Source of the DNA: Deltaproteobacteria bacterium
GTDB taxonomy: Bacteria; Myxococcota_A; Polyangia; Polyangiales; Houyiibacteriaceae
NCBI GenBank assembly: GCA_013151775.1
Contig: JAADHO010000111.1
Coordinates: 1-40,625, forward strand
DNA length: 40,625 nucleotides
Reading direction: 5' to 3'
Shown piece after piece: positions 5,664-39,820 of this stretch. Under the pieces are notes generated by a model. It had not been told where the DNA came from and searched no databases. It was given only the letters and a program-made list of their open reading frames with translations. How positions within the stretch are numbered: position 1 is the stretch's first letter; each line of letters starts with the position of its first letter. The translations under genes and the position numbers were made by a program.

Positions 5664-8600
5664 TCAGGGAGAAACCGCGGCGGCTGCCGCTCCCCAACGT
5701 TCGTGGTTGATGGCGTCGCCTGCACGAGCCGAAAGATCGGTGGCCGAGCGATAGCGCGCCTTGGCGGCGACGTGATCCCCCGCCAGCTCGGCCAGAGCGC
5801 CGAGGGCTCCTTGGGCCGCCGCCTCGAGGGCCGGAGAGTCTGCGGCCCGGGCGTAGCCCTCGGCGATGGAGAGGTATTGCTCAGCGCCCTTGGCGTCGCC
5901 CGCGTCGATCAGCACCTCACCCAGCTCGATGCGACAGCGCGCGCGCGCGGCCACGGGAGCGGTGATCTCCTCGAGCAGCTCCGAGGCGCGCCGATAGGCG
6001 CTGACGGCGTGGCGAAGATCGCCGCCTTCCCGGCGGAGGCGGCCGAGGTAGAGCTGAATCATCGCTTCGACGGATCGGTGCTCGCCGCCACCCACGCTCT
6101 CTAGAGCGCGGCCAAAGAAGCGCATGGCGTCACGGGGACGCTGGCGAGAATGGGCGACGCTGCCCAAACTCACCCAGAGGCGGAGGCGCTCCTTGCTGCG
6201 CGGCAGGGTGAGGTCGATGGCTTCCCGTAGCACGCCGTCAGCCGTAGAGAGCTCTCCCGCGTGGGCCATGGCGTCGCCCAGCTTGCGGCTGAAGGTGACC
6301 AGCGCCGTGTCCATGACGGCGTCTCCGCTCTCGAGCATCTCCCGGCGCGCGAGGAAGAGGGCGCGCCGATAGGCCAACACCGCCGCGGAGGCGTCAGCGC
6401 GCTGACAGGCGGCGTCGCCCATGCGCTCCAGGCTCATCAAGGCGGTCAAGGGCTCGCCACAGCGGAAAGCGTGCTCGGCTCGCTCCTCCACTGACGCGTT
6501 GAGATCGGCGAGGGCGTCGAGGGCCCGCCGGTGCAGCTTGCGCCGGGCTTGGGCGGGGATCGACGCCTCGACCAGCTCGCGCACGAAGCGATGGTTGACC
6601 CGGATCGTCGAGCCGTCACGCTGTATGAGCCCGCGCCGCATGACCTCGTCGATGCCCTCCAAGTCTTCAGGCGAGGAGACGCTCCCCAACACCTCGATGT
6701 TGGTCTCTTCGCCCAAGATCGCCACCGCCTGAAGCACACGGCGCGCCGGCAGACTGAGGGCGTCCACGCTCTGGGAGACGGCGTCCGCGAGGCGCCTGGG
6801 CAGGGAGGGCTCATCGAGGGAGCTCGCGCCGGCCAAGACGAGCTGCTCGAGGTAGAGAGGCAGGAAGCGACGCGACGCGCTGGGGGTCGCGTCTTGCTCG
6901 AGGACGGCCGGCGTGGGGTGACCCATGAAGCGCGCGGCCTGTGCGGAATCGAGGCCGTGCAGGGGCAGCTCGCGCACACCCTCCTCCGCGGGGTAGCGGC
7001 CGTCGCCGGCTGTCACGAGCAGCGCCGATCGACCTTCGAAGACCTTCGCGAAATGGGACAGGGCCTCGCGGCTGGGTCCGTCCACGAGCTGGAGATCATC
7101 GACGAAGAGGGTGCAGCGCGAGCAGCGCTGACGGCGCATGGCGTCATCGGCGGCCGCCCGCATGGCGCGCGCCACGGCGCCGGAGCGCTCACCCCACTCG
7201 ACGCCCACCAGCCCCCGTGGATTCGCCAGCTCCTCGAAGCCCGCGCGCACGAGAGGGTCGGGCCAGCGCGTCTGGTCTCCGGCCTGGGCCAGCAGCTCGT
7301 CTGGAGGCAGCTCGAGCAGATCCGCGGTCAGGCGACGCGCGGCATAGTAGGGAACAGGTGCATCGCTGGGATGTGGACCGGTGACCACCACCACGTCGCC
7401 CTGATCGGCGCAGCGGGTGGCGAACTCTCGCAGCAGGCGTGTCTTACCGACGCCGATCTCTCCCAGGATTCGCACGCCTAAGGGCCGGCCCTCAGCCTCG
7501 GCGCGGATGCCGTCGAGGGCGGCCATCTCGACCGTGCGTCCGACCAGCTCGCGAGTGGACGGCGCCTCCGGCACGAAGGAGGGTCGTGGGTGGGTGGGCG
7601 CCACGGACGACGGCACCTTCATCTTCCCAGTGAGCCGCGTGCCACAGCTGCCGCAGAAACGCATGGCCTCGGGGTTCGGTTCACCACAGCTGCCGCAGAC
7701 GTTGGTCGCCCGACGGCGCTCCGCCTCGATGGCGCGACGCGCGTCTGCGAGGGCGTCGCGCATGTCTTCGGCGGTCTGATAGCGATCCTCGCGCAGCTTG
7801 GCCATGGCCTTCTGCTGCACCTGAACCAAACACTCGGGGATCTCCCGTTGGGGAGCGAACTCGCGCGGATCCGGGATGGGATCGTTGATGTGGCGCAGGA
7901 CCACGCGCGTGGGAGTCTCGTCCTCGAAGGGCAGGCGCTCGGTCAACATCTCGAAGAGCACGATGCCCAGCGCGTAGAGATCCGAGCGGCCGTCGACGAC
8001 CTCCCCACGCCCCTGCTCCGGAGCCATGTAGTCGGGAGTCCCGCACACGAGCCCGGGCCGGGTGATGGAGGTCGAGTGGGGATCCGTGATGGTCGCCAGG
8101 CCGAAGTCCACGACCTTCACCAGATCGCGCCCAGAGCGCTGCCGCTTCAACAGGATGTTCTCGGGCTTCAGATCGCGGTGCACCACTCCGAGGGCGTGGG
8201 CCTCGCCGAGGGCGTCGAGGGTGGCGTCGAGGATGCGGATGATGCGCCCAAAGGGCAGCGGGCCCTCCTCGTGCATCACCAGAGCGAGATCCTTACCGAC
8301 CAGGTACTCCATGGCCAAGAAGAGGATGCCGTCGTCCGTACGGCCGAAGTCGAAGATGGAGACGCTGTTCGGATGGTTCAGGCTGCTGGCCGCCCGCGCC
8401 TCAGTGTAGAAGCGCGCGACCGTGGCCTCGTCGCCCAAGAGATGCGGGTGGATGACCTTTACGGCCACGGTCCGACCGAGCACGCCCTGCTCCGCCCGAT
8501 ACACCCGCCCCATACCGCCCACGCCGACGATCTCCTGGATCGTGTACGCGCCACCGACCGTGCGCCCGACGAGTGGATCGCTGGCCCCAGACGAATGTTC

Positions 8601-8702
8601 ATCCTTCTGGGTTGCGCCACACGACGCACAAAAGCGGTCTTCCGCTTTGCCGCTCGCCCCACACTGATGACACACTCGCACCTGAAGCGCAGCATATCCC
8701 AT
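5664..8702 (-). CDS. Ser/Thr protein kinase with zinc ribbons, AAA ATPase and TPR region
   Basis: About 1012 residues. Order: a first zinc ribbon (CHQC...CASC, residues 11-29); a Hanks-type kinase domain (about 50-325) with glycine loop GVGGMGRVY, Lys82, Glu101, HRDLKPEN (175-182), DFG (199-201) and APE, so active by motif; a second zinc ribbon (CGSC...CGSC, 336-354); an AAA_16-type NTPase with Walker A GEIGVGKT (414-421) and Walker B TLFVDDLQ; then a helical region rich in TPR-like repeats to the end. This kinase-STAND layout resembles PknK-type regulators, but no C-terminal HTH is visible. No TM helix, so cytosolic. The start is uncertain: ATG at 8702 has no Shine-Dalgarno, and an in-frame GTG seven codons later, just before the first ribbon, is possible. 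Upstream open frame to 9047 overlaps the divergent gene and is rejected. Confidence 0.9.
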   Translation of the reverse strand: MGYAALQVRVCHQCGASGKAEDRFCASCGATQKDEHSSGASDPLVGRTVGGAYTIQEIVGVGGMGRVYRAEQGVLGRTVAVKVIHPHLLGDEATVARFYTEARAASSLNHPNSVSIFDFGRTDDGILFLAMEYLVGKDLALVMHEEGPLPFGRIIRILDATLDALGEAHALGVVHRDLKPENILLKRQRSGRDLVKVVDFGLATITDPHSTSITRPGLVCGTPDYMAPEQGRGEVVDGRSDLYALGIVLFEMLTERLPFEDETPTRVVLRHINDPIPDPREFAPQREIPECLVQVQQKAMAKLREDRYQTAEDMRDALADARRAIEAERRRATNVCGSCGEPNPEAMRFCGSCGTRLTGKMKVPSSVAPTHPRPSFVPEAPSTRELVGRTVEMAALDGIRAEAEGRPLGVRILGEIGVGKTRLLREFATRCADQGDVVVVTGPHPSDAPVPYYAARRLTADLLELPPDELLAQAGDQTRWPDPLVRAGFEELANPRGLVGVEWGERSGAVARAMRAAADDAMRRQRCSRCTLFVDDLQLVDGPSREALSHFAKVFEGRSALLVTAGDGRYPAEEGVRELPLHGLDSAQAARFMGHPTPAVLEQDATPSASRRFLPLYLEQLVLAGASSLDEPSLPRRLADAVSQSVDALSLPARRVLQAVAILGEETNIEVLGSVSSPEDLEGIDEVMRRGLIQRDGSTIRVNHRFVRELVEASIPAQARRKLHRRALDALADLNASVEERAEHAFRCGEPLTALMSLERMGDAACQRADASAAVLAYRRALFLARREMLESGDAVMDTALVTFSRKLGDAMAHAGELSTADGVLREAIDLTLPRSKERLRLWVSLGSVAHSRQRPRDAMRFFGRALESVGGGEHRSVEAMIQLYLGRLRREGGDLRHAVSAYRRASELLEEITAPVAARARCRIELGEVLIDAGDAKGAEQYLSIAEGYARAADSPALEAAAQGALGALAELAGDHVAAKARYRSATDLSARAGDAINHERWGAAAAAVSP

Positions 8703-8706
8703 GGAG
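8703..8706 (+). promoter_or_regulatory. Shine-Dalgarno GGAG fixing the GTG start at 8713
   Basis: GGAG lies six bases before an in-frame GTG at 8713. The ATG at 8701 has no ribosome site and would overlap the start codon of the divergent kinase, so GTG 8713 is preferred. The site lies immediately upstream of the divergent kinase ATG. Confidence 0.5.
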
Positions 8707-8712
8707 TGGTTC

Positions 8713-9462
8713 GTGGAAAACGGACAGATCGTGAAAGTTGGTGAGGTGCCTCCGAGGCTCCGCTCGCGCGCCGTCGTGGCGCTCGCGGGGCTGCTGGCGT
8801 GGCTGCTGCTCGGCCCCCTACCTCTGGCCCTGTCGTCCACGCCCATGAACCGCCCATGGCTGGCCTGGCCCGCTCCCCTGGCGTGCCTGGCGCTTGGCGT
8901 CTCCCAGATGGGGCGCAGACCGCGCGTCTCCCGGGCGCTGCTCCTCGGGGTCTTCCCGCCCCTGGCGATCTTGGGCGCCTTCTTGCTCCAGCCGGCGGCG
9001 GGAGTCGGGCTCGGCGCGCTCGCCACCGGCGTGGCGGCCCTGGGCATGCTGCTCTATGTCGCGGGCAGCGTGCGCATCCTCGGCGGCGCCATGGAGTTGG
9101 CCCCCAGCGTGAGCGCTCGCTCGAAGGATGAGGGGCACGTCCCCGGAGAGCGGCGTCGACGCCTCGCAAGCTCCCTGTGGGTGGTCTTGACAACCGCCGG
9201 CGCCTTCTCGGTCTTGGCCATCGCGCCCTACGTCGAAGACGACACGCTGCTGACCGCACGTTTCGGTTCGAGCGCCATGGAGGCGCGCCTGCTGATGGCG
9301 TCGGTCGGAGCGTCCCTCGGGCTCGGCGCCCTGGCCTTCGTGGTAGCGCCCTCTCTGCGCACGCGCCGCCCCTCCGCCCACGAGAGGCGCCGGCGCTGGC
9401 TACGCTTCGGCCTGTATCTGCTAGCGCTGACGACGGGCGCGCTGCTGGTCTGGCGGCTCTGA
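8713..9462 (+). CDS. Seven-TM integral membrane protein, unknown function
   Basis: 249 residues from GTG 8713. About seven hydrophobic segments are visible, separated by short charged loops; a central loop (SARSKDEGH...GERRRRLA) is the main polar stretch. No catalytic or binding motif is recognised. It is transcribed away from the kinase gene with virtually no spacer, so the two promoters must overlap coding sequence or each other. It ends 22 bases before the stop of the convergent HD-GYP-like gene. Placement between two signalling proteins hints at a sensor or partner role, but that is only inference. Confidence 0.75.
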   Translation: MENGQIVKVGEVPPRLRSRAVVALAGLLAWLLLGPLPLALSSTPMNRPWLAWPAPLACLALGVSQMGRRPRVSRALLLGVFPPLAILGAFLLQPAAGVGLGALATGVAALGMLLYVAGSVRILGGAMELAPSVSARSKDEGHVPGERRRRLASSLWVVLTTAGAFSVLAIAPYVEDDTLLTARFGSSAMEARLLMASVGASLGLGALAFVVAPSLRTRRPSAHERRRRWLRFGLYLLALTTGALLVWRL

Positions 9463-32874: not shown

Positions 32875-33294
32875 TCAGTCGCCCAGCGCTCCGAGCTCCG
32901 CGACGAGCTCGGCCACGCGACGCGTCACCCTGACGACCGCCGACACCAACGCTTCGTCGATGTCTACAACCCCCTCGTATTCCGCTAGGTTTCGCTTGCG
33001 GTGCGCCGCATCCAGCACCCGCCACTCCGGAGACGAGAGCCCGACGGTATGCGTGAGGCACTGAAACACGAGGTAGCGATTCCCGGAACGGTAGCCGTGC
33101 CATCGCAACGCCGCGAGCGCCAGCGCGTGAGCTGCGTTGTAGGCGAGATCGAAGCGGCTCTCCAGATTGAGCGAGGCATTCTCGGCATCATGGAGTCGCA
33201 CACGGCCCGAACGCACGAGCCCGTCGAATTCAGCAGCCGAGGGCGGCTCGTTCTTCAGTTTGCCGATACGAACGAGATTCTCCAACGCGGTCAT
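32875..33294 (-). CDS. HEPN-domain protein, toxin-like partner
   Basis: 139 residues, mostly helical. Pattern AENASLNLESRFDLAYNAAHALALAALRWHGYRSGNRYLVFQCL followed by DAAHRKRNLAEYEGVV fits a HEPN fold. In HEPN ribonucleases the active motif is RxxxxxH; here it reads RKRNLAEYEG with Tyr at the usual His place, as in a HEPN subgroup whose RNase activity is doubtful. The ATG overlaps the nucleotidyltransferase stop as ATGA, the usual arrangement of an MNT-HEPN pair, in which the nucleotidyltransferase neutralises the HEPN toxin. It sits head-on against aroC with a three-base gap. Toxin activity is inferred from the pairing and not shown by the motif. Confidence 0.75.
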   Translation of the reverse strand: MTALENLVRIGKLKNEPPSAAEFDGLVRSGRVRLHDAENASLNLESRFDLAYNAAHALALAALRWHGYRSGNRYLVFQCLTHTVGLSSPEWRVLDAAHRKRNLAEYEGVVDIDEALVSAVVRVTRRVAELVAELGALGD

Positions 33295-33860
33295 GGAGCG
33301 AGCGTTCCGAGGAGGGGAATGGTGTCACCGGCGAGCACGCGCTCCAAGAACGGGTTGGCCGTCCGCAGACGATGTTCATACTCAGCGGAAGTGTAGAGAG
33401 TGGGGTGAACGGCGCGACCGAGGACCTTCTCCGCCGGCGCCAACGCCGCATAGAGCGTCTCCAAGGTCAGCGCGTCGGAGACGAGCAGGAGATCGATGTC
33501 ACTTTGAGCAGTCTGGCTCCCCTTGGCGACGGAGCCATACACGAAGGCCAAGAGGATGCGCTCCTGCAAAGGCTCGAGGGCGGTTCGAAGGGGATCGGCC
33601 AAGCCCACGGTCTTGCGTACCAGGGCGCGAAGCTCAGGGTAGATCGGAGAGTCAGCATTCGCCTGATAGTGTTTCTGGTTACCCTTGCGGGATACGGTCA
33701 CCAGACCGCTCTCGGCCAGCTTGCGTAGCTCCCGCTGCACCGCTCCAGACCCGGCACGCACGCGGCCAATGACCTCCGTTGCGTAGAAGCTCCGCTCGGG
33801 TTGACCGAAGAGTAGCCCGAGGACCCGCCGCTGCGTCGAGGTGAACAGCGCGTCAGCCAT
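33291..33860 (-). CDS. wHTH-nucleotidyltransferase, MNT antitoxin-like
   Basis: 189 residues from ATG 33860. The N-terminal 75 residues form a winged HTH (LFTSTQRRVLGLLFGQPERSFYATEVIGRV...VQRELRKLAESGLVTVSRKGNQKHYQAN). The rest is a minimal nucleotidyltransferase with GSVAKGSQTAQSDIDLLLVSD, the GSx10DxD signature. The third acidic residue expected further on is not obvious (VHPTLYTSAEYE), as in other members of this family. It is probably the antitoxin and autorepressor of the downstream HEPN gene, which it overlaps by four bases. ATGs at 33917-33920 are also in frame, but the predicted promoter would put the transcript start about there, so either a leaderless start or ATG 33860 is used. Confidence 0.8.
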   Translation of the reverse strand: MADALFTSTQRRVLGLLFGQPERSFYATEVIGRVRAGSGAVQRELRKLAESGLVTVSRKGNQKHYQANADSPIYPELRALVRKTVGLADPLRTALEPLQERILLAFVYGSVAKGSQTAQSDIDLLLVSDALTLETLYAALAPAEKVLGRAVHPTLYTSAEYEHRLRTANPFLERVLAGDTIPLLGTLAP

Positions 33861-33923
33861 GGAGCACGGAGGCTTCACGCTCGGATCGAATGCTGGGGGT
33901 GCTGACTCCAAGGACATCATCAC

Positions 33924-34809: not shown

Positions 34810-35229
34810 CTACGCGACGTCGGGATCGTCGTCGTCGCGCAGGCCGAGCAGCTCGGCGAAGCCTTGGCAGATGTCGGTAGAGGTGACGATGCCCACGAGC
34901 TTCCCGTGACGCACGACCAGCGCCGCGTCACCTGCGTCCTCCGCCAGACGCGCCAGCACGTCCTCGAGGCGCGCGCCCTGATCCACCACCAAGGGGTTCT
35001 GTCGCGAGACAGCCAAGGCCGGATGACCCGCTCCCGCGTGCTCGAGAGCCACCTCGAGCACGTCTCGCCTCAAGAGCCCCACGATGCGCTCTCCGCGCAC
35101 CAAGGGTAGATGCCGAATGGCGTGCTCCTCGAAGCGTGTGGACGCCTCGGACATGCTGACGTCCGCGGGCGCCGTGTAGGGGAAGGGCGTCATCACGGAG
35201 AGCAGCGTCGGCAGGGCGTCCACGCTCAT
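34810..35229 (-). CDS. CBS-domain protein
   Basis: 139 residues holding a pair of CBS motifs: VMTPFPYTAPADVSMSEAS...HLPLVRGERIVGLLRRDVL and QNPLVVDQGARLEDVLARLAEDAGDAALVVRHGKLVGIVTSTDI. Such pairs (Bateman modules) bind adenine nucleotides such as AMP, ATP or SAM and regulate partners. The ATG overlaps the alpha-oxoamine synthase stop as ATGA (35226-35229), so it is made with that enzyme and could regulate it, as inference. The C terminus is an Asp-rich tail (RDDDDPDVA). Confidence 0.88.
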   Translation of the reverse strand: MSVDALPTLLSVMTPFPYTAPADVSMSEASTRFEEHAIRHLPLVRGERIVGLLRRDVLEVALEHAGAGHPALAVSRQNPLVVDQGARLEDVLARLAEDAGDAALVVRHGKLVGIVTSTDICQGFAELLGLRDDDDPDVA

Positions 35230-36455
35230 TCTTCCAGAGGCTCGAGCTCGACGTCGCCCAAGACGAAGAAGGCCTCACCGTAGCTCGACAAGAGGTCGAG
35301 GGCCTTGTCCATGTCCTCGCGCGTGTGACCGCGCGTGACGTTCAGACGCAGGCGCTCCTCGCCCTTCTTCACGCCGGGGTAGGTGATGGGTACCATCATC
35401 ACGCCGCCCTCGAGCAGGGCGATGTGCATGAACAGCGCCTTGCGCTCGTCGCGGCACATCACGGGCATGATGTGGCTGTTGCTCTTGCCCAGGTCGAAGC
35501 CAATCTCGAGCAGGCGACCGCGCATGTAGTCGGACTTCTCATGCAGCTCCTGCACCAGCGCCTCGCCCTCCTCTTCGAGCATGGTCAGGATGGTCGCCGC
35601 GGCTGCCACCACGGGCACGGGCAACGACGCGCTGAAGAGGAAGCTGCGCGCGTAGTGCTTCACGTGCTCCACCACGTCGCTGCTACCGAGCAGGATGCCG
35701 CCGATGCCGCCGAAGGTCTTGGAGAAGGTGCTGACGACGACGGGCACGCGGCCGCCGAGATCGTACTTCTCGAGGATGCCGCGTCCGCCCTTGCCAAGAG
35801 TGCCCGTGCCGTGGGCGTCGTCGCAGATCATCGGCGCGCCAAACTCCTCGGCCGCCTCCACCAGCTCCGTGATCGGCGCCTCGTCCCCGTCGAGGGAGTA
35901 GATGCCCTCGAAGAGCACCAGGGCGTTTTTGCGCTGCTTGGTGCGCAGGCAGCGGCGCAGGGAGCGGGCGGAGTTGTGGTTGAAGAAGCGCACCTCGGGC
36001 TGCCGCATGGGCGTGCCCGCAGCCAGGAAGGTGCCGTCGAGGATGCAGGCGTGGCTGAGGTTGTCGAGGATCAGGGTGGTGTCCTTGTCGGCCAAGCTCA
36101 TGATGGTGCCGACCATGGCTTGGTAGCCGGTCGTGAAGAGCACGCAGGCCTCGAAGCCGAACCACTCCGCGAGACGCTCTTCGAGCTCGACGTGGGCCGT
36201 GGTCGTCGCCTGCACGCGGCTGCTGCTCAGACCGCAGCTGAAGAGATCCACGGCCGCCTTGCTCGCCTCCTTCACCTTCGGATGCGTGGTCAGACCGAGG
36301 TAGTCGTTGGAGCTGAAGTTGACCACCGGCCGACCGCCGATGGAGCTGTGCAGACCGCCACTCTCAAAGGGCTTGAAGTAGGGGTAGACCTGCTTCTCCC
36401 GGGCCTCACGAACGCGCGCAAGCTCGGCGTAGGCCTTTTCGTCGATCCAACTCAT
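35226..36455 (-). CDS. Alpha-oxoamine synthase (PLP-dependent acyltransferase)
   Basis: 409 residues of the AONS/KBL/SPT family, which condenses an amino acid with an acyl-thioester, with loss of CO2, to an alpha-amino ketone. Visible: NFSSNDYLGL, His135 (NLSHACILDG, PLP stacking), FFNHNS, Asp212-His215 (DDAHGTGTLG) and the PLP-binding Lys246 in STFSKTFGG. The acyl donor and amino acid cannot be told apart by eye; because an ACP, ketosynthases and thioesterase are in the same cluster, an acyl-ACP donor is likely, making serine palmitoyltransferase-like or secondary-lipid chemistry more probable than biotin synthesis, since no other bio gene is present. A GAGG four bases before the ATG supports the start. 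Stop overlaps the CBS gene start; 27 bases separate it from the upstream ketosynthase-like gene. Confidence 0.9.
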   Translation of the reverse strand: MSWIDEKAYAELARVREAREKQVYPYFKPFESGGLHSSIGGRPVVNFSSNDYLGLTTHPKVKEASKAAVDLFSCGLSSSRVQATTTAHVELEERLAEWFGFEACVLFTTGYQAMVGTIMSLADKDTTLILDNLSHACILDGTFLAAGTPMRQPEVRFFNHNSARSLRRCLRTKQRKNALVLFEGIYSLDGDEAPITELVEAAEEFGAPMICDDAHGTGTLGKGGRGILEKYDLGGRVPVVVSTFSKTFGGIGGILLGSSDVVEHVKHYARSFLFSASLPVPVVAAAATILTMLEEEGEALVQELHEKSDYMRGRLLEIGFDLGKSNSHIMPVMCRDERKALFMHIALLEGGVMMVPITYPGVKKGEERLRLNVTRGHTREDMDKALDLLSSYGEAFFVLGDVELEPLEE

Positions 36456-36482
36456 GAGTCCTCGTCGCCCGGTCAGCCGGGA

Positions 36483-37655
36483 TCAATCTCGCCGCCGCAG
36501 CACGACGGCGCTGACGTTGCCATAGAAGCCCGCGGTCAACACGAGCGCGTGTCTGATCCGCTTCGGAGCCTCGCCTCGGAAGAGAGGCGCGACGGGGGCT
36601 CCGTCGAAGAATGCCATCAGGGCCACGAGGTTCATGGCGCCGCTCGCGCCGAAGGTCTCGCCCACGACACGCTTGGGAGCGACGCAGGCCGTGGACGCTC
36701 CGAACACGGACGCGAGGGCTGTCTCCTCCGCGTCGTCGAAGACGCCGAAGCCGGAGCGGGAAGCGCACACGAGATCGACCTCGTCGGCGTCGACATCTGC
36801 GTCCTCGAGGGCCAGACGGATCGCGTCCTCCACGGCTCTCGCGGAGGCGTGCACGAGCAGCGCCTCGGACGCGGGGGCGTCGAAGGAGGTGCCGAAACCG
36901 ACCAGCTCCGCGTGCACGCGAGCGCCACGGGCGAGGGCTCCCTCGAGGGTCTCCACCACCACATAGGCGGCGCCCTCACCGAGGTGTAGGCCCGGAGCCT
37001 CGGCGTCTTCGGCGACCACACCGAGCTTGCGCATGGCGAGGTAGAGGGGCTCCGTCAGCACCTCGCCTCCGCCCACCAAGAAGGCGTCGGCGCGCCCACG
37101 GCAGAGGTGCAGGTCCGCAGTCAACACAGCGTCGAGGGCGCCGCAATTGCCGTCTACGATCGTCGTGTTCGGCGCTCGCAGGTCTTCCCAGATGCTGACG
37201 TAGCCTGCGGCGGCGTTGATCACCGTGTTGGGAAAACGCGTGGGGTTGATGTAGCGGGGATCTTCCAGCTCGGCGACCCGGTTCAGCTCCGTGATGGCGT
37301 CGAGGGAGCCGTAGGCCGTGGCCGAGCAGATGCCCACGCGATCGGGAGCGAGGGCGACGAACTCTCGATCCCGCTTGATCCCCGCGTGGGCCAGCGCCTG
37401 CCCGGCGGCGACGATCAAAAACTTCGTCAGGCGATCGAAGGTGCGATGTCCCTTGGGGCCGAGCCATTTCTTGGGATCCCAATCCCAGACCTCGGCCAAA
37501 CGCGCCCCGGGCGCCACCTCGGCCAAGACCTCCGTCGGACCTCGGAAGGCCGCCTCTCGAGCGGAGTCTGGATGGGAGAGCGCCTCGGTGAAGGCCGTGT
37601 GTCCCACGCCGAGAGGGGAGACGACGCCCCAGCCGGTGATGGCGCGTGCTCTCAT
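36483..37655 (-). CDS. Ketosynthase-like protein lacking catalytic His (CLF-like)
   Basis: 390 residues with the thiolase fold of beta-ketoacyl-ACP synthases. Cys171 (DGNCGALD) lies near the active-site position, but the first His motif (VNAHGTxT in active enzymes) reads VCASRSGFG, and the second reads KRVVGETFGASG, with Lys328 kept and Glu333 in place of His. It therefore should not catalyse decarboxylative condensation alone and resembles the chain-length factor or initiation subunit that pairs with an active ketosynthase. The ATG overlaps the stop of the upstream ketosynthase as ATGA, the arrangement expected of a heterodimer. Upstream open frame to 38546 is a shadow of the neighbour. Specificity is unknown. 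Confidence 0.86.
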   Translation of the reverse strand: MRARAITGWGVVSPLGVGHTAFTEALSHPDSAREAAFRGPTEVLAEVAPGARLAEVWDWDPKKWLGPKGHRTFDRLTKFLIVAAGQALAHAGIKRDREFVALAPDRVGICSATAYGSLDAITELNRVAELEDPRYINPTRFPNTVINAAAGYVSIWEDLRAPNTTIVDGNCGALDAVLTADLHLCRGRADAFLVGGGEVLTEPLYLAMRKLGVVAEDAEAPGLHLGEGAAYVVVETLEGALARGARVHAELVGFGTSFDAPASEALLVHASARAVEDAIRLALEDADVDADEVDLVCASRSGFGVFDDAEETALASVFGASTACVAPKRVVGETFGASGAMNLVALMAFFDGAPVAPLFRGEAPKRIRHALVLTAGFYGNVSAVVLRRRD

Positions 37656-38902
37656 GCCTCGACCGCCGAAGCGCATACCGGACCGGAGACGTCCTCGAGG
37701 ATGCCCGGCTTGGCGAACACCACGGCCGCGTCGTAGCCGCCAAAGGCGAGGGCGTTGTTGAGCACCACGTCGCAGCGCATGGCACGGGGTCCACCGACGA
37801 CCAGGTCCACGTCGCAGCCGGGGTCGGGGTTCTCGTGATGGGTCGTGGGAGGCGCGGAGTCGTTCAGAATCGAGAGCACGCAGCTGACGGCCTCGATGGC
37901 GCTCGCCGCGCCCATGCAGTGACCGAGCATGCTCTTGATGCTGGTCACGGCGGGCCTTTTCGCCTGAAAGAGCTGACCGAGGACCATGGCCTCGACGGCG
38001 TCGTTGGCTTGGGTCGCCGTGCCGTGGGCGTTCACGAGGTCGACCTGCTCGGGCCGCAGCCGACTCGTCTCGATGGCCCGGCGCATGGCCTGCAAGCTGC
38101 CCACGCCCTCGGGGTGAGGCCGTGTGATGTGATGGGCGTCGCAGGCCAAGCCGCCCACCTCCGCGAGCAGGTTCGCGTCGCGCGCCAGCGCGTGGGCCTC
38201 GCTCTCGAGCACGAAGATGCCCGCGCCTTCGCCAACCAAGAGCCCCCTGCGAGCCACGTCGAAGGGGCGCACGAAGTCGGGGCTCATGGCGCCGAGGCGC
38301 GCGAAGCCCGCGAACTGCAACTTCTCGAGCACCTCGCTCGCGCCCGTGATCACCACGTCGGCGCGTCCCGCGCGGATCAACTCGGCCGCGAAGCCGATGG
38401 CGTAGTTGCCCGCGGCGCAGGCGGAGGGCAGCGTCTGCACCAGGCCGCGAGCGCCGATGGCTCGGGCCAGGTGAATGGGCAAGAGCGTGGTGCCATAGCG
38501 AGGCAGACGCGCGGGGTGGATCACGTGATCGCCCTCGTGTATCCACGCGGCCTCCAGCTCGCCGAGCACGTTGGCCTCACCCATGGTGGTGCCGATCACG
38601 ACGCTGGTCCGCGGACCGGCGATCTCGCCAGGCCCGATCCGCGCGTGGCTCAAGGCTTGACGCATCCCGGAGAGCGCCATCTGAGCGCAGCGACCCGTGC
38701 GCCTGACCTCTGCCGCCGTGAGGTGATCACGCGGCACGAAGTCCTTCACCTCGCAGGCGATGTGTCGATCGAAGACCTCGTGATCAAAGCGCGTGATCTC
38801 CGCCGCGCCATCCTCCCCCGCGGCGAGCGCGGCGTCGAAGGCGTCGACCCCAACGGCGACCGGACTCACCACCCCCATTCCTGTGACAAAGACGCGCGTC
38901 AT
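37652..38902 (-). CDS. Beta-ketoacyl-ACP synthase, active triad (KS-alpha-like)
   Basis: 416 residues, FabF-type. The catalytic Cys162 (LPSACAAGNYAIG), His293 (VNAHGTATQANDAVE), Lys323 and His328 (SIKSMLGHCMGAASAIE) are all present, so it should elongate acyl-ACP with malonyl-ACP. It starts at ATG 38902 (MTRVFVTGMGVVSPV, the usual N terminus). It is coupled by ATGA to the His-less ketosynthase-like gene, so the pair probably works as a KS/CLF heterodimer. It is transcribed divergently from the acyl carrier protein gene over a 246-base spacer. Confidence 0.93.
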   Translation of the reverse strand: MTRVFVTGMGVVSPVAVGVDAFDAALAAGEDGAAEITRFDHEVFDRHIACEVKDFVPRDHLTAAEVRRTGRCAQMALSGMRQALSHARIGPGEIAGPRTSVVIGTTMGEANVLGELEAAWIHEGDHVIHPARLPRYGTTLLPIHLARAIGARGLVQTLPSACAAGNYAIGFAAELIRAGRADVVITGASEVLEKLQFAGFARLGAMSPDFVRPFDVARRGLLVGEGAGIFVLESEAHALARDANLLAEVGGLACDAHHITRPHPEGVGSLQAMRRAIETSRLRPEQVDLVNAHGTATQANDAVEAMVLGQLFQAKRPAVTSIKSMLGHCMGAASAIEAVSCVLSILNDSAPPTTHHENPDPGCDVDLVVGGPRAMRCDVVLNNALAFGGYDAAVVFAKPGILEDVSGPVCASAVEA

Positions 38903-39148
38903 AGCCGCGGGTCTATAGCGCGCTGAGGTCGACGCACGCAAGCCATGGCCCTGGCCGAACGGCCTGTTTTCTCGGGCAGTTGGCGACTTGACACGGGGTC
39001 ATGGGCCCACCTAATTGCCTCGTCGACCTCGCCTGGAATCGCGCCCAAGGAAGACCCCTTTTCACAACCCGCGCTCGTGGAAGCGCTCTAGGCGAGACGC
39101 ATGTATCAAGCGGGGGAGTTTCCCCGCAGGCTCCAGGAAGGTGATGTG
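38903..39148. promoter_or_regulatory. Divergent promoter region of KS and ACP genes
   Basis: 246-base spacer. On the plus strand TTGACA (38988-38993) is followed after 18 bases by a weak TAATTG (39012-39017), a candidate ACP promoter. GGAAGG-type bases (39135-39141) precede the ACP start. No clear operator was seen. Confidence 0.4.
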
Positions 39149-39388
39149 ATGGCCGACGATCTGAAGAAGAAGCTCCGGGAGATCATCTGCGAGGTGGCCG
39201 AGCTGGACGAGGTGCCCGACGAGCAGCCCTTCGAGGAGCTGGGCATCGACTCGATGATGGCGATCGAGATCGTCGCGGACGTGGAGCGCACCTACAAGCT
39301 CAACATCCCCGAGGACGAGCTGTCCGAGCTCACCAACCTTCAGCGCGTCTACGACAAGGTGCGCGAGAAGCTCGGTCAGGCCGCCTAG
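39149..39388 (+). CDS. Acyl carrier protein
   Basis: 79 residues, acidic and helical. Ser35 in LGIDSMMAIEI is the phosphopantetheine attachment site; EELGIDS and the following helix are typical ACP. It is not in a fab cluster but faces the ketosynthase pair divergently, so it is probably dedicated to this pathway. An AGGAAGG precedes ATG 39149; a GTG directly before it is possible. The thioesterase gene follows with zero spacing (stop TAG immediately before TTG). Confidence 0.93.
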   Translation: MADDLKKKLREIICEVAELDEVPDEQPFEELGIDSMMAIEIVADVERTYKLNIPEDELSELTNLQRVYDKVREKLGQAA

Positions 39389-39820
39389 TTGCCCGACTCT
39401 GGCGAGTCCTCCGCCGAAGCACTGGAGGCTTCGCGCAGCCACGTCTATCAGGTCCGCGCGGGCTATGGAGACACGGACCAGGGCGGCGTCGTGCATCACG
39501 CCGTCTACCTGCGCTGGCTCGAGCAGGCGCGGGTGGAGTGGTTGCGTGCGCGAGGTCTCGACTTCGGAGAGCTCGAGCGCAGGCATCGCGTGACGCTGGT
39601 GGTCGCCAACGCCGAGCTCAGCTATCGGCGACCCGCGCGCTTCGACGACGTGCTGCAGATTCGCGCCACGCTGATGCGCAAGCTCGGCGCCACCCTCGTG
39701 TTCGAGTACGCCATCCACTGCCGAGGCGAGCTCTTGGCGACGGCCAAGACGCGCCTCGCGTGCGTGCAGCTCGACAGCCTGCGTCCCGTGCGCATGCCCT
39801 TCGCCGACGCCTTGGGCTAG
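39389..39820 (+). CDS. 4HBT/YbgC-type acyl thioesterase
   Basis: 143 residues with a hotdog-fold thioesterase pattern: GYGDTDQGGVVHHAVYLRWLEQARVEWLRARG contains the catalytic Asp (Asp30, before QGGVVHH), followed by VANAELSYRRPARFDDVLQIRATL. It should hydrolyse acyl-CoA or acyl-ACP thioesters. The start is TTG immediately after the ACP stop, so the two are coupled. It probably releases the chain built on the adjacent ACP, or edits it; the chain identity is unknown. Confidence 0.87.
   Translation: MPDSGESSAEALEASRSHVYQVRAGYGDTDQGGVVHHAVYLRWLEQARVEWLRARGLDFGELERRHRVTLVVANAELSYRRPARFDDVLQIRATLMRKLGATLVFEYAIHCRGELLATAKTRLACVQLDSLRPVRMPFADALG

Follow-up and report, generated by a model that had tools for sequence, protein, structure and literature searches.

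An alpha-oxoamine synthase with a ketosynthase pair and a dedicated acyl carrier protein, apparently in place of SPT in one order of Myxococcota

The locus described here probably encodes a long-chain-base synthase similar to serine palmitoyltransferase (SPT), with an acyl-ACP of its own as acyl donor, which would be made with a heterodimer of a ketosynthase (KS) and a ketosynthase-like protein (KSL). Judging from gene content and gene trees, its alpha-oxoamine synthase (AOS) seems to have replaced ordinary SPT in one Myxococcota order, in which the later ceramide genes were kept.

Gene Inventory and Conservation of the Locus

The window, that is, the whole stretch of 40,625 nucleotides that was analysed, is contig C31 of a genome of 6.05 Mb in 460 contigs. 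The relatives of this genome are Myxococcota MAGs, many of them labelled Sandaracinaceae, and a plasmid search gave no close relative. The six genes named in the original prediction (CBS, AOS, KSL, and KS on the minus strand, ACP and thioesterase on the plus strand) are all present and were correctly located. The features are the following:

34810..35229, minus strand: two-CBS-domain protein, overlapping the AOS stop
35226..36455, minus strand: AOS, alpha-oxoamine synthase with the PLP Lys in STFSKTFGG, a putative SPT-like long-chain-base synthase
36483..37655, minus strand: KSL, ketosynthase-like protein without the catalytic His; its start, ATG 37655, overlaps the KS stop
37652..38902, minus strand: KS, active elongating ketosynthase of FabF type (C-H-H)
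39092..39124, plus strand: relic of the C-terminus of a fatty acyl-AMP ligase (FAAL) (ARRMYQAGEFP), directly after an in-frame TAG
39149..39388, plus strand: dedicated acyl carrier protein (ACP), with the Ser in GIDSMM
39389..39820, plus strand: thioesterase of the YbgC/FadM family, directly 3' of ACP, accessory

The conserved core, present in most of about 69 related loci, is formed by KS-KSL-AOS and a divergent ACP, to which many relatives add a second ACP, a FAAL, or both. This gene set is far above chance, since it is kept in dozens of Myxococcota genomes, and it looks like a conserved lipid pathway of the whole order; the idea of an isolated secondary-metabolite cluster is not supported. 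The thioesterase and the CBS protein had also been counted as parts of the system. The comparison of the loci ruled them out as core parts, considering that the thioesterase gene adjoins ACP in 4 other loci only and the CBS gene adjoins AOS only in the nearest relative (L009). Both are regarded as local additions, the CBS protein being probably outside the system.

Elsewhere in the window (32875-33923, minus strand), a nucleotidyltransferase-domain protein (33291-33923) overlaps a small HEPN-like ORF (32875-33294) that gave no Pfam match, and the pair is perhaps an MNT-HEPN toxin-antitoxin.

The Acyl Carrier Protein and the Lost FAAL

The Ser of the GIDSMM motif of ACP is conserved in 52/52 sequences. 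The start of the gene is most likely ATG 39149 and not the annotated 39101; the 16 codons ahead of this ATG, MYQAGEFPRRLQEGDV, lengthen the annotated ACP and include the C-terminal relic of a FAAL. In L009, whose AOS is 94% identical to that of the window, the FAAL gene lies between ACP and KS. This region of about 1.7 kb is missing from the window, where 11 codons are left, and directly before them there is an in-frame TAG at the position at which L009 has GAG. The mutated stop argues for decay of the FAAL gene over misassembly. A FAAL is present in 22 of the related loci, and the genome of the window has another one (47% identity) on contig C121.

The Ketosynthase Pair

The KS and KSL genes overlap by ATGA and therefore look translationally coupled. 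In KS, Cys162, His293, and His328 are each invariant among 43/43 orthologues. In KSL both catalytic His are lost: among 51 sequences the second His position is Glu in 50 and Asp in one, the first holds many different residues, and the active-site Cys varies (C in 31, T in 12, P in 5, and A in 3). Taking into account the missing His and the variable Cys, KSL is a dead protein of ketosynthase fold; its AlphaFold model (pLDDT 90) has the FabF fold. An active KS coupled to a His-less partner is what had been predicted, and both observations were confirmed. The pair is not the housekeeping FabF/FabB, the genome's own FabF, which scores above the FabF cutoff, being on another contig (C189). Among the 144 genomes of the order, KSL was found only in those with AOS (72 of 84).

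The genome also holds a further KS cluster (L166 and L167; G000:C72:13696-20796), with at least two FabF-like genes below the FabF cutoff.

Relationship between AOS and SPT

A maximum-likelihood tree was built with AOS, SPT (Bacteroidota, rhodobacterial, and Myxococcota), BioF, and KBL; ALAS and CqsA were left out, and some reference branches are long. In this tree the AOS clade has a support of 100/99 and groups with SPT at 100/97, to the exclusion of BioF and KBL, AOS being sister to the known SPT clade and not inside it.

AOS fell below every NCBIfam cutoff. Against the curated SPT models it scored 307, 274, and 220 bits (cutoffs of 640, 500, and 670), none of which is passed, and against the CqsA model 174 bits (cutoff of 428). 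A Myxococcota SPT that adjoins bcerS-cerR (L118) also fails the SPT cutoff, with 452 bits against 640. Given its position outside the clade and below the cutoffs, AOS was not filed as an SPT. The PLP Lys motif is STFSK in AOS, GTFSK in SPT, and TLGK in KBL, so that the TFSK motif of SPT is present in AOS. The best fold match of the AOS AlphaFold model was the Sphingobacterium SPT (3a2b; Z 51.0, rmsd 1.6, 387 aligned), followed by a Thermus enzyme (Z 48.7), KBL (48.4), AONS (46.2), and CqsA (42.2). We propose that AOS nevertheless works like an SPT.

A second type of AOS, 42-47% identical to that of the window, was seen in L126 (G225, AOS at 7630-8823), in G258 (G258:C139:27214), and in G295, G312, G319, and G326; in G258 the distance to bCerS is about 11 kb.

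Replacement of SPT beside the Ceramide Genes

The bacterial ceramide pathway with bCerS, the bacterial ceramide synthase, and CerR has been described (PMC11087976, PMC9386255). In an SPT-bearing relative, spt stands in a row with an acyltransferase-like gene and the gene of an NAD-dependent epimerase. The acyltransferase-like gene matched nothing in Pfam or NCBIfam. In E. coli it is related to YghO, which in BL21(DE3) adjoins the FAAL, epimerase, ACP, and spt genes, and for this reason we read the acyltransferase as bCerS and the epimerase as CerR.

Genes were assigned from score and identity lists to an AOS class (at least 64% identity) or to an SPT-like class (35-39% identity to AOS, 237-278 bits). 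Among the 144 genomes of the order, AOS was found in 84, an SPT-like gene in 52, and both in 1. A tree that included 19 phylum members of the 35-39% class put 18 of them with SPT and one (L132, not from this order) beside AOS. Outside the order, AOS is absent from all of 200 genomes, where the best match was 44%. A bCerS homologue is present in 80/84 AOS genomes and in 52/52 SPT genomes of the order, and outside it in 61/200, at least 12 of them with an AOS-family gene within 2.3 kb. On the bCerS tree, which is a gene tree and includes two copies from some genomes, the AOS/SPT label changes at least 3 times, and one AOS group is nested in SPT genomes. The mutual exclusion of AOS and SPT rests on few independent switches, and the class hits were treed in part; with so few switches, Fisher values for co-occurrence overstate independence.

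In the genome of the window, the bCerS homologue (C357:2495-3643, 40% identity to E. coli YghO) and the best CerR match (C261, 36% identity) are on other contigs, away from AOS. In 18 of the 44 AOS genomes examined, bcerS and cerR are close together without spt beside them (CerR 48-58%), and in G239 AOS is 250 bp from bcerS. Replacement of SPT by AOS, together with the co-occurrence with bCerS and CerR, supports well the earlier suggestion of a sphingolipid-type pathway.

In one genus (g2), ACP and AOS are adjacent and divergent without KS and KSL, and bCerS is present. As AOS and ACP are kept there without it, the KS pair is not strictly needed. In several loci of the KS/KSL-less lineage (L020-L046), ACP-AOS has two conserved neighbours, an HpnA-like SDR and a gene for a CysE-like serine acetyltransferase; the SDR near AOS was considered as CerR and rejected (25% identity).

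An AMP ligase and an SDR on C407 were likewise considered, as a FAAL-CerR pair, and discarded, since both seem to be part of an oleABCD olefin cluster. There (L149; G000:C407:5900-10750) a KSIII-like gene, an alpha/beta hydrolase, the AMP ligase, and the SDR stand in a row, a probable oleABCD cluster for long-chain olefins.

Proposed Pathway and Alternative Readings

In the proposed pathway, a fatty acid would be carried as a thioester on the dedicated ACP, which in relatives would be loaded by FAAL and here perhaps by a FAAL elsewhere in the genome or from fatty-acid synthesis. KS and the dead KSL would act as a heterodimer that extends the acyl chain or sets its length, and housekeeping reductases would finish each elongation cycle. 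AOS would then condense the acyl-ACP with an amino acid, probably serine, to give CO2 and a 3-keto long-chain base, which the bCerS homologue would N-acylate and a CerR-type reductase would reduce. The predicted chemistry, from acyl-ACP and amino acid to an alpha-amino ketone, is well supported by the position of AOS as sister to SPT. A KS/KSL heterodimer extending or measuring the acyl chain ahead of AOS appears to be the simplest reading. More tentatively, and with the balance leaning against it, KS/KSL and AOS could make an undescribed sphingoid base, for example, with a chain built or lengthened on ACP under chain-length control by the ketosynthase; a whole Myxococcota order would then have a second, separately evolved sphingolipid entry.

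The current genome-based prediction of sphingolipid producers among bacteria relies on homology to SPT together with bCerS and CerR. If the proposed pathway is true, a large Myxococcota group owes its sphingolipids to an enzyme that would be missed by a strict test of SPT clade membership. The SPT/AOS exchanges, which recur next to one and the same ceramide synthase, would then amount to a natural experiment in how a first step can be replaced. The role of a ketosynthase and its dead partner ahead of an alpha-oxoamine synthase becomes a testable question.

AOS might instead use another amino acid (cysteate, alanine, or glycine) and form a sulfonolipid-like or 1-deoxy base to be acylated by bCerS, which we consider unlikely. 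The cysteate acyl-ACP transferase of Alistipes has the same logic and is structurally related (Z 45.7; PDB 28eh), the surroundings of the PLP loop are distinct in the AOS clade (VQATTTAHVE), and 1-deoxy- and sulfono-ceramides have been reported from environmental bacteria (PMC11334938). However, SPT is nearer to AOS than the cysteate enzyme by fold and by PDB score, and the swapping of AOS with SPT suggests an equivalent product.

Still less probable is a specialised secondary lipid that has nothing to do with ceramide, for which KS/KSL would build a polyketide-like chain and AOS would release it as an aminoketone, bCerS being part of something else. The resemblance of the pair to the heterodimeric KS-CLF of type II polyketide synthases is in line with this, but the system is near-universal in the order and exclusive with SPT, bcerS-cerR pairs are retained and bcerS even adjoins AOS in G239, and the genus without the KS pair keeps AOS, ACP, and bCerS.

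The genome has three genes of the AOS family: AOS of the window, a BioF on C309 followed by a dethiobiotin-synthetase-like gene (BioF-BioD), and a KBL on C330 (66% identity to E. coli kbl), whose next gene is a zinc dehydrogenase, interpreted as Tdh. The biotin AONS being thus elsewhere, beside BioD, AOS does not fall firmly in AONS. That AOS is a paralogue of biotin AONS or of threonine-pathway KBL, accompanied by a housekeeping KS, is very improbable: the best NCBIfam score of AOS is indeed for bioF (312 bits), but it misses the cutoff of 426, BioF-BioD and KBL-Tdh are encoded apart, the tree excludes both, and the FabF above cutoff is on C189.

Comparison with Known Systems

For the pathway preferred here, with AOS as the SPT-like enzyme, a KS/KSL-coupled alpha-oxoamine synthase was not found described in the literature searched, myxobacteria included, nor were sphingolipid, Myxococcus xanthus, SPT, and ceramide synthase found together. 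Among solved structures, KS and KSL are both closest to a KS/KS-like/ACP complex (PDB 9s5h/9s5i), which was absent from the fold-search results; for the ACP of the window, that of 9s5i ranks within the top three. The KS-like chain 9s5h_C also has Glu for the second His, whereas it has no Cys at the active-site position, where KSL often has one. In type II PKS, KS-CLF likewise combines an active KS with a His-less subunit, and among the PDB matches of KS the ishigamide KS/CLF ranks second. The CLF of type II PKS has Gln in place of Cys, whereas KSL has C, T, P, or A there.

The Alistipes cysteate acyl-ACP transferase of sulfonolipid synthesis is likewise an alpha-oxoamine synthase, and it begins the synthesis of a ceramide analogue with an acyl thioester. 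Its substrate is acyl-ACP according to the PDB title, and it is farther from AOS in sequence and fold score. The SPT of Bacteroidota and Myxococcota (3a2b; spt-bcerS-cerR of G045) has the closest fold, 36-39% identity to AOS, and exchanges with it beside a conserved bCerS; ACP and KS/KSL were not found in the SPT loci examined, save for weak KS and KSL matches in L128. The SPTs of Myxococcus, Stigmatella, and Sorangium group with those of Bacteroidetes (PMC9386255).

The rhodobacterial SPT receives its acyl group from a dedicated ACP, which an acyl-ACP synthetase loads (PMC9386255), and the set of FAAL, ACP, and AOS follows this logic. Padilla-Gomez et al. described acpR-aasR homologues that form an operon in a genomic context unlike that of Rhodobacteria (PMC9386255). 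The rhodobacterial operon (AasR, a FAAL; CerR; AcpR; SPT), found in E. coli BL21(DE3) as ECD_RS14830-14845 and in Caulobacter, differs from the window in that AOS forms a separate clade (33% identity to EcSPT), KS/KSL are added, CerR is outside the cluster, and FAAL is lost. Common to both are the FAAL, in the relatives of the window, the dedicated ACP, an alpha-oxoamine synthase of the SPT branch, and a member of the bCerS/YghO family in the same genome.
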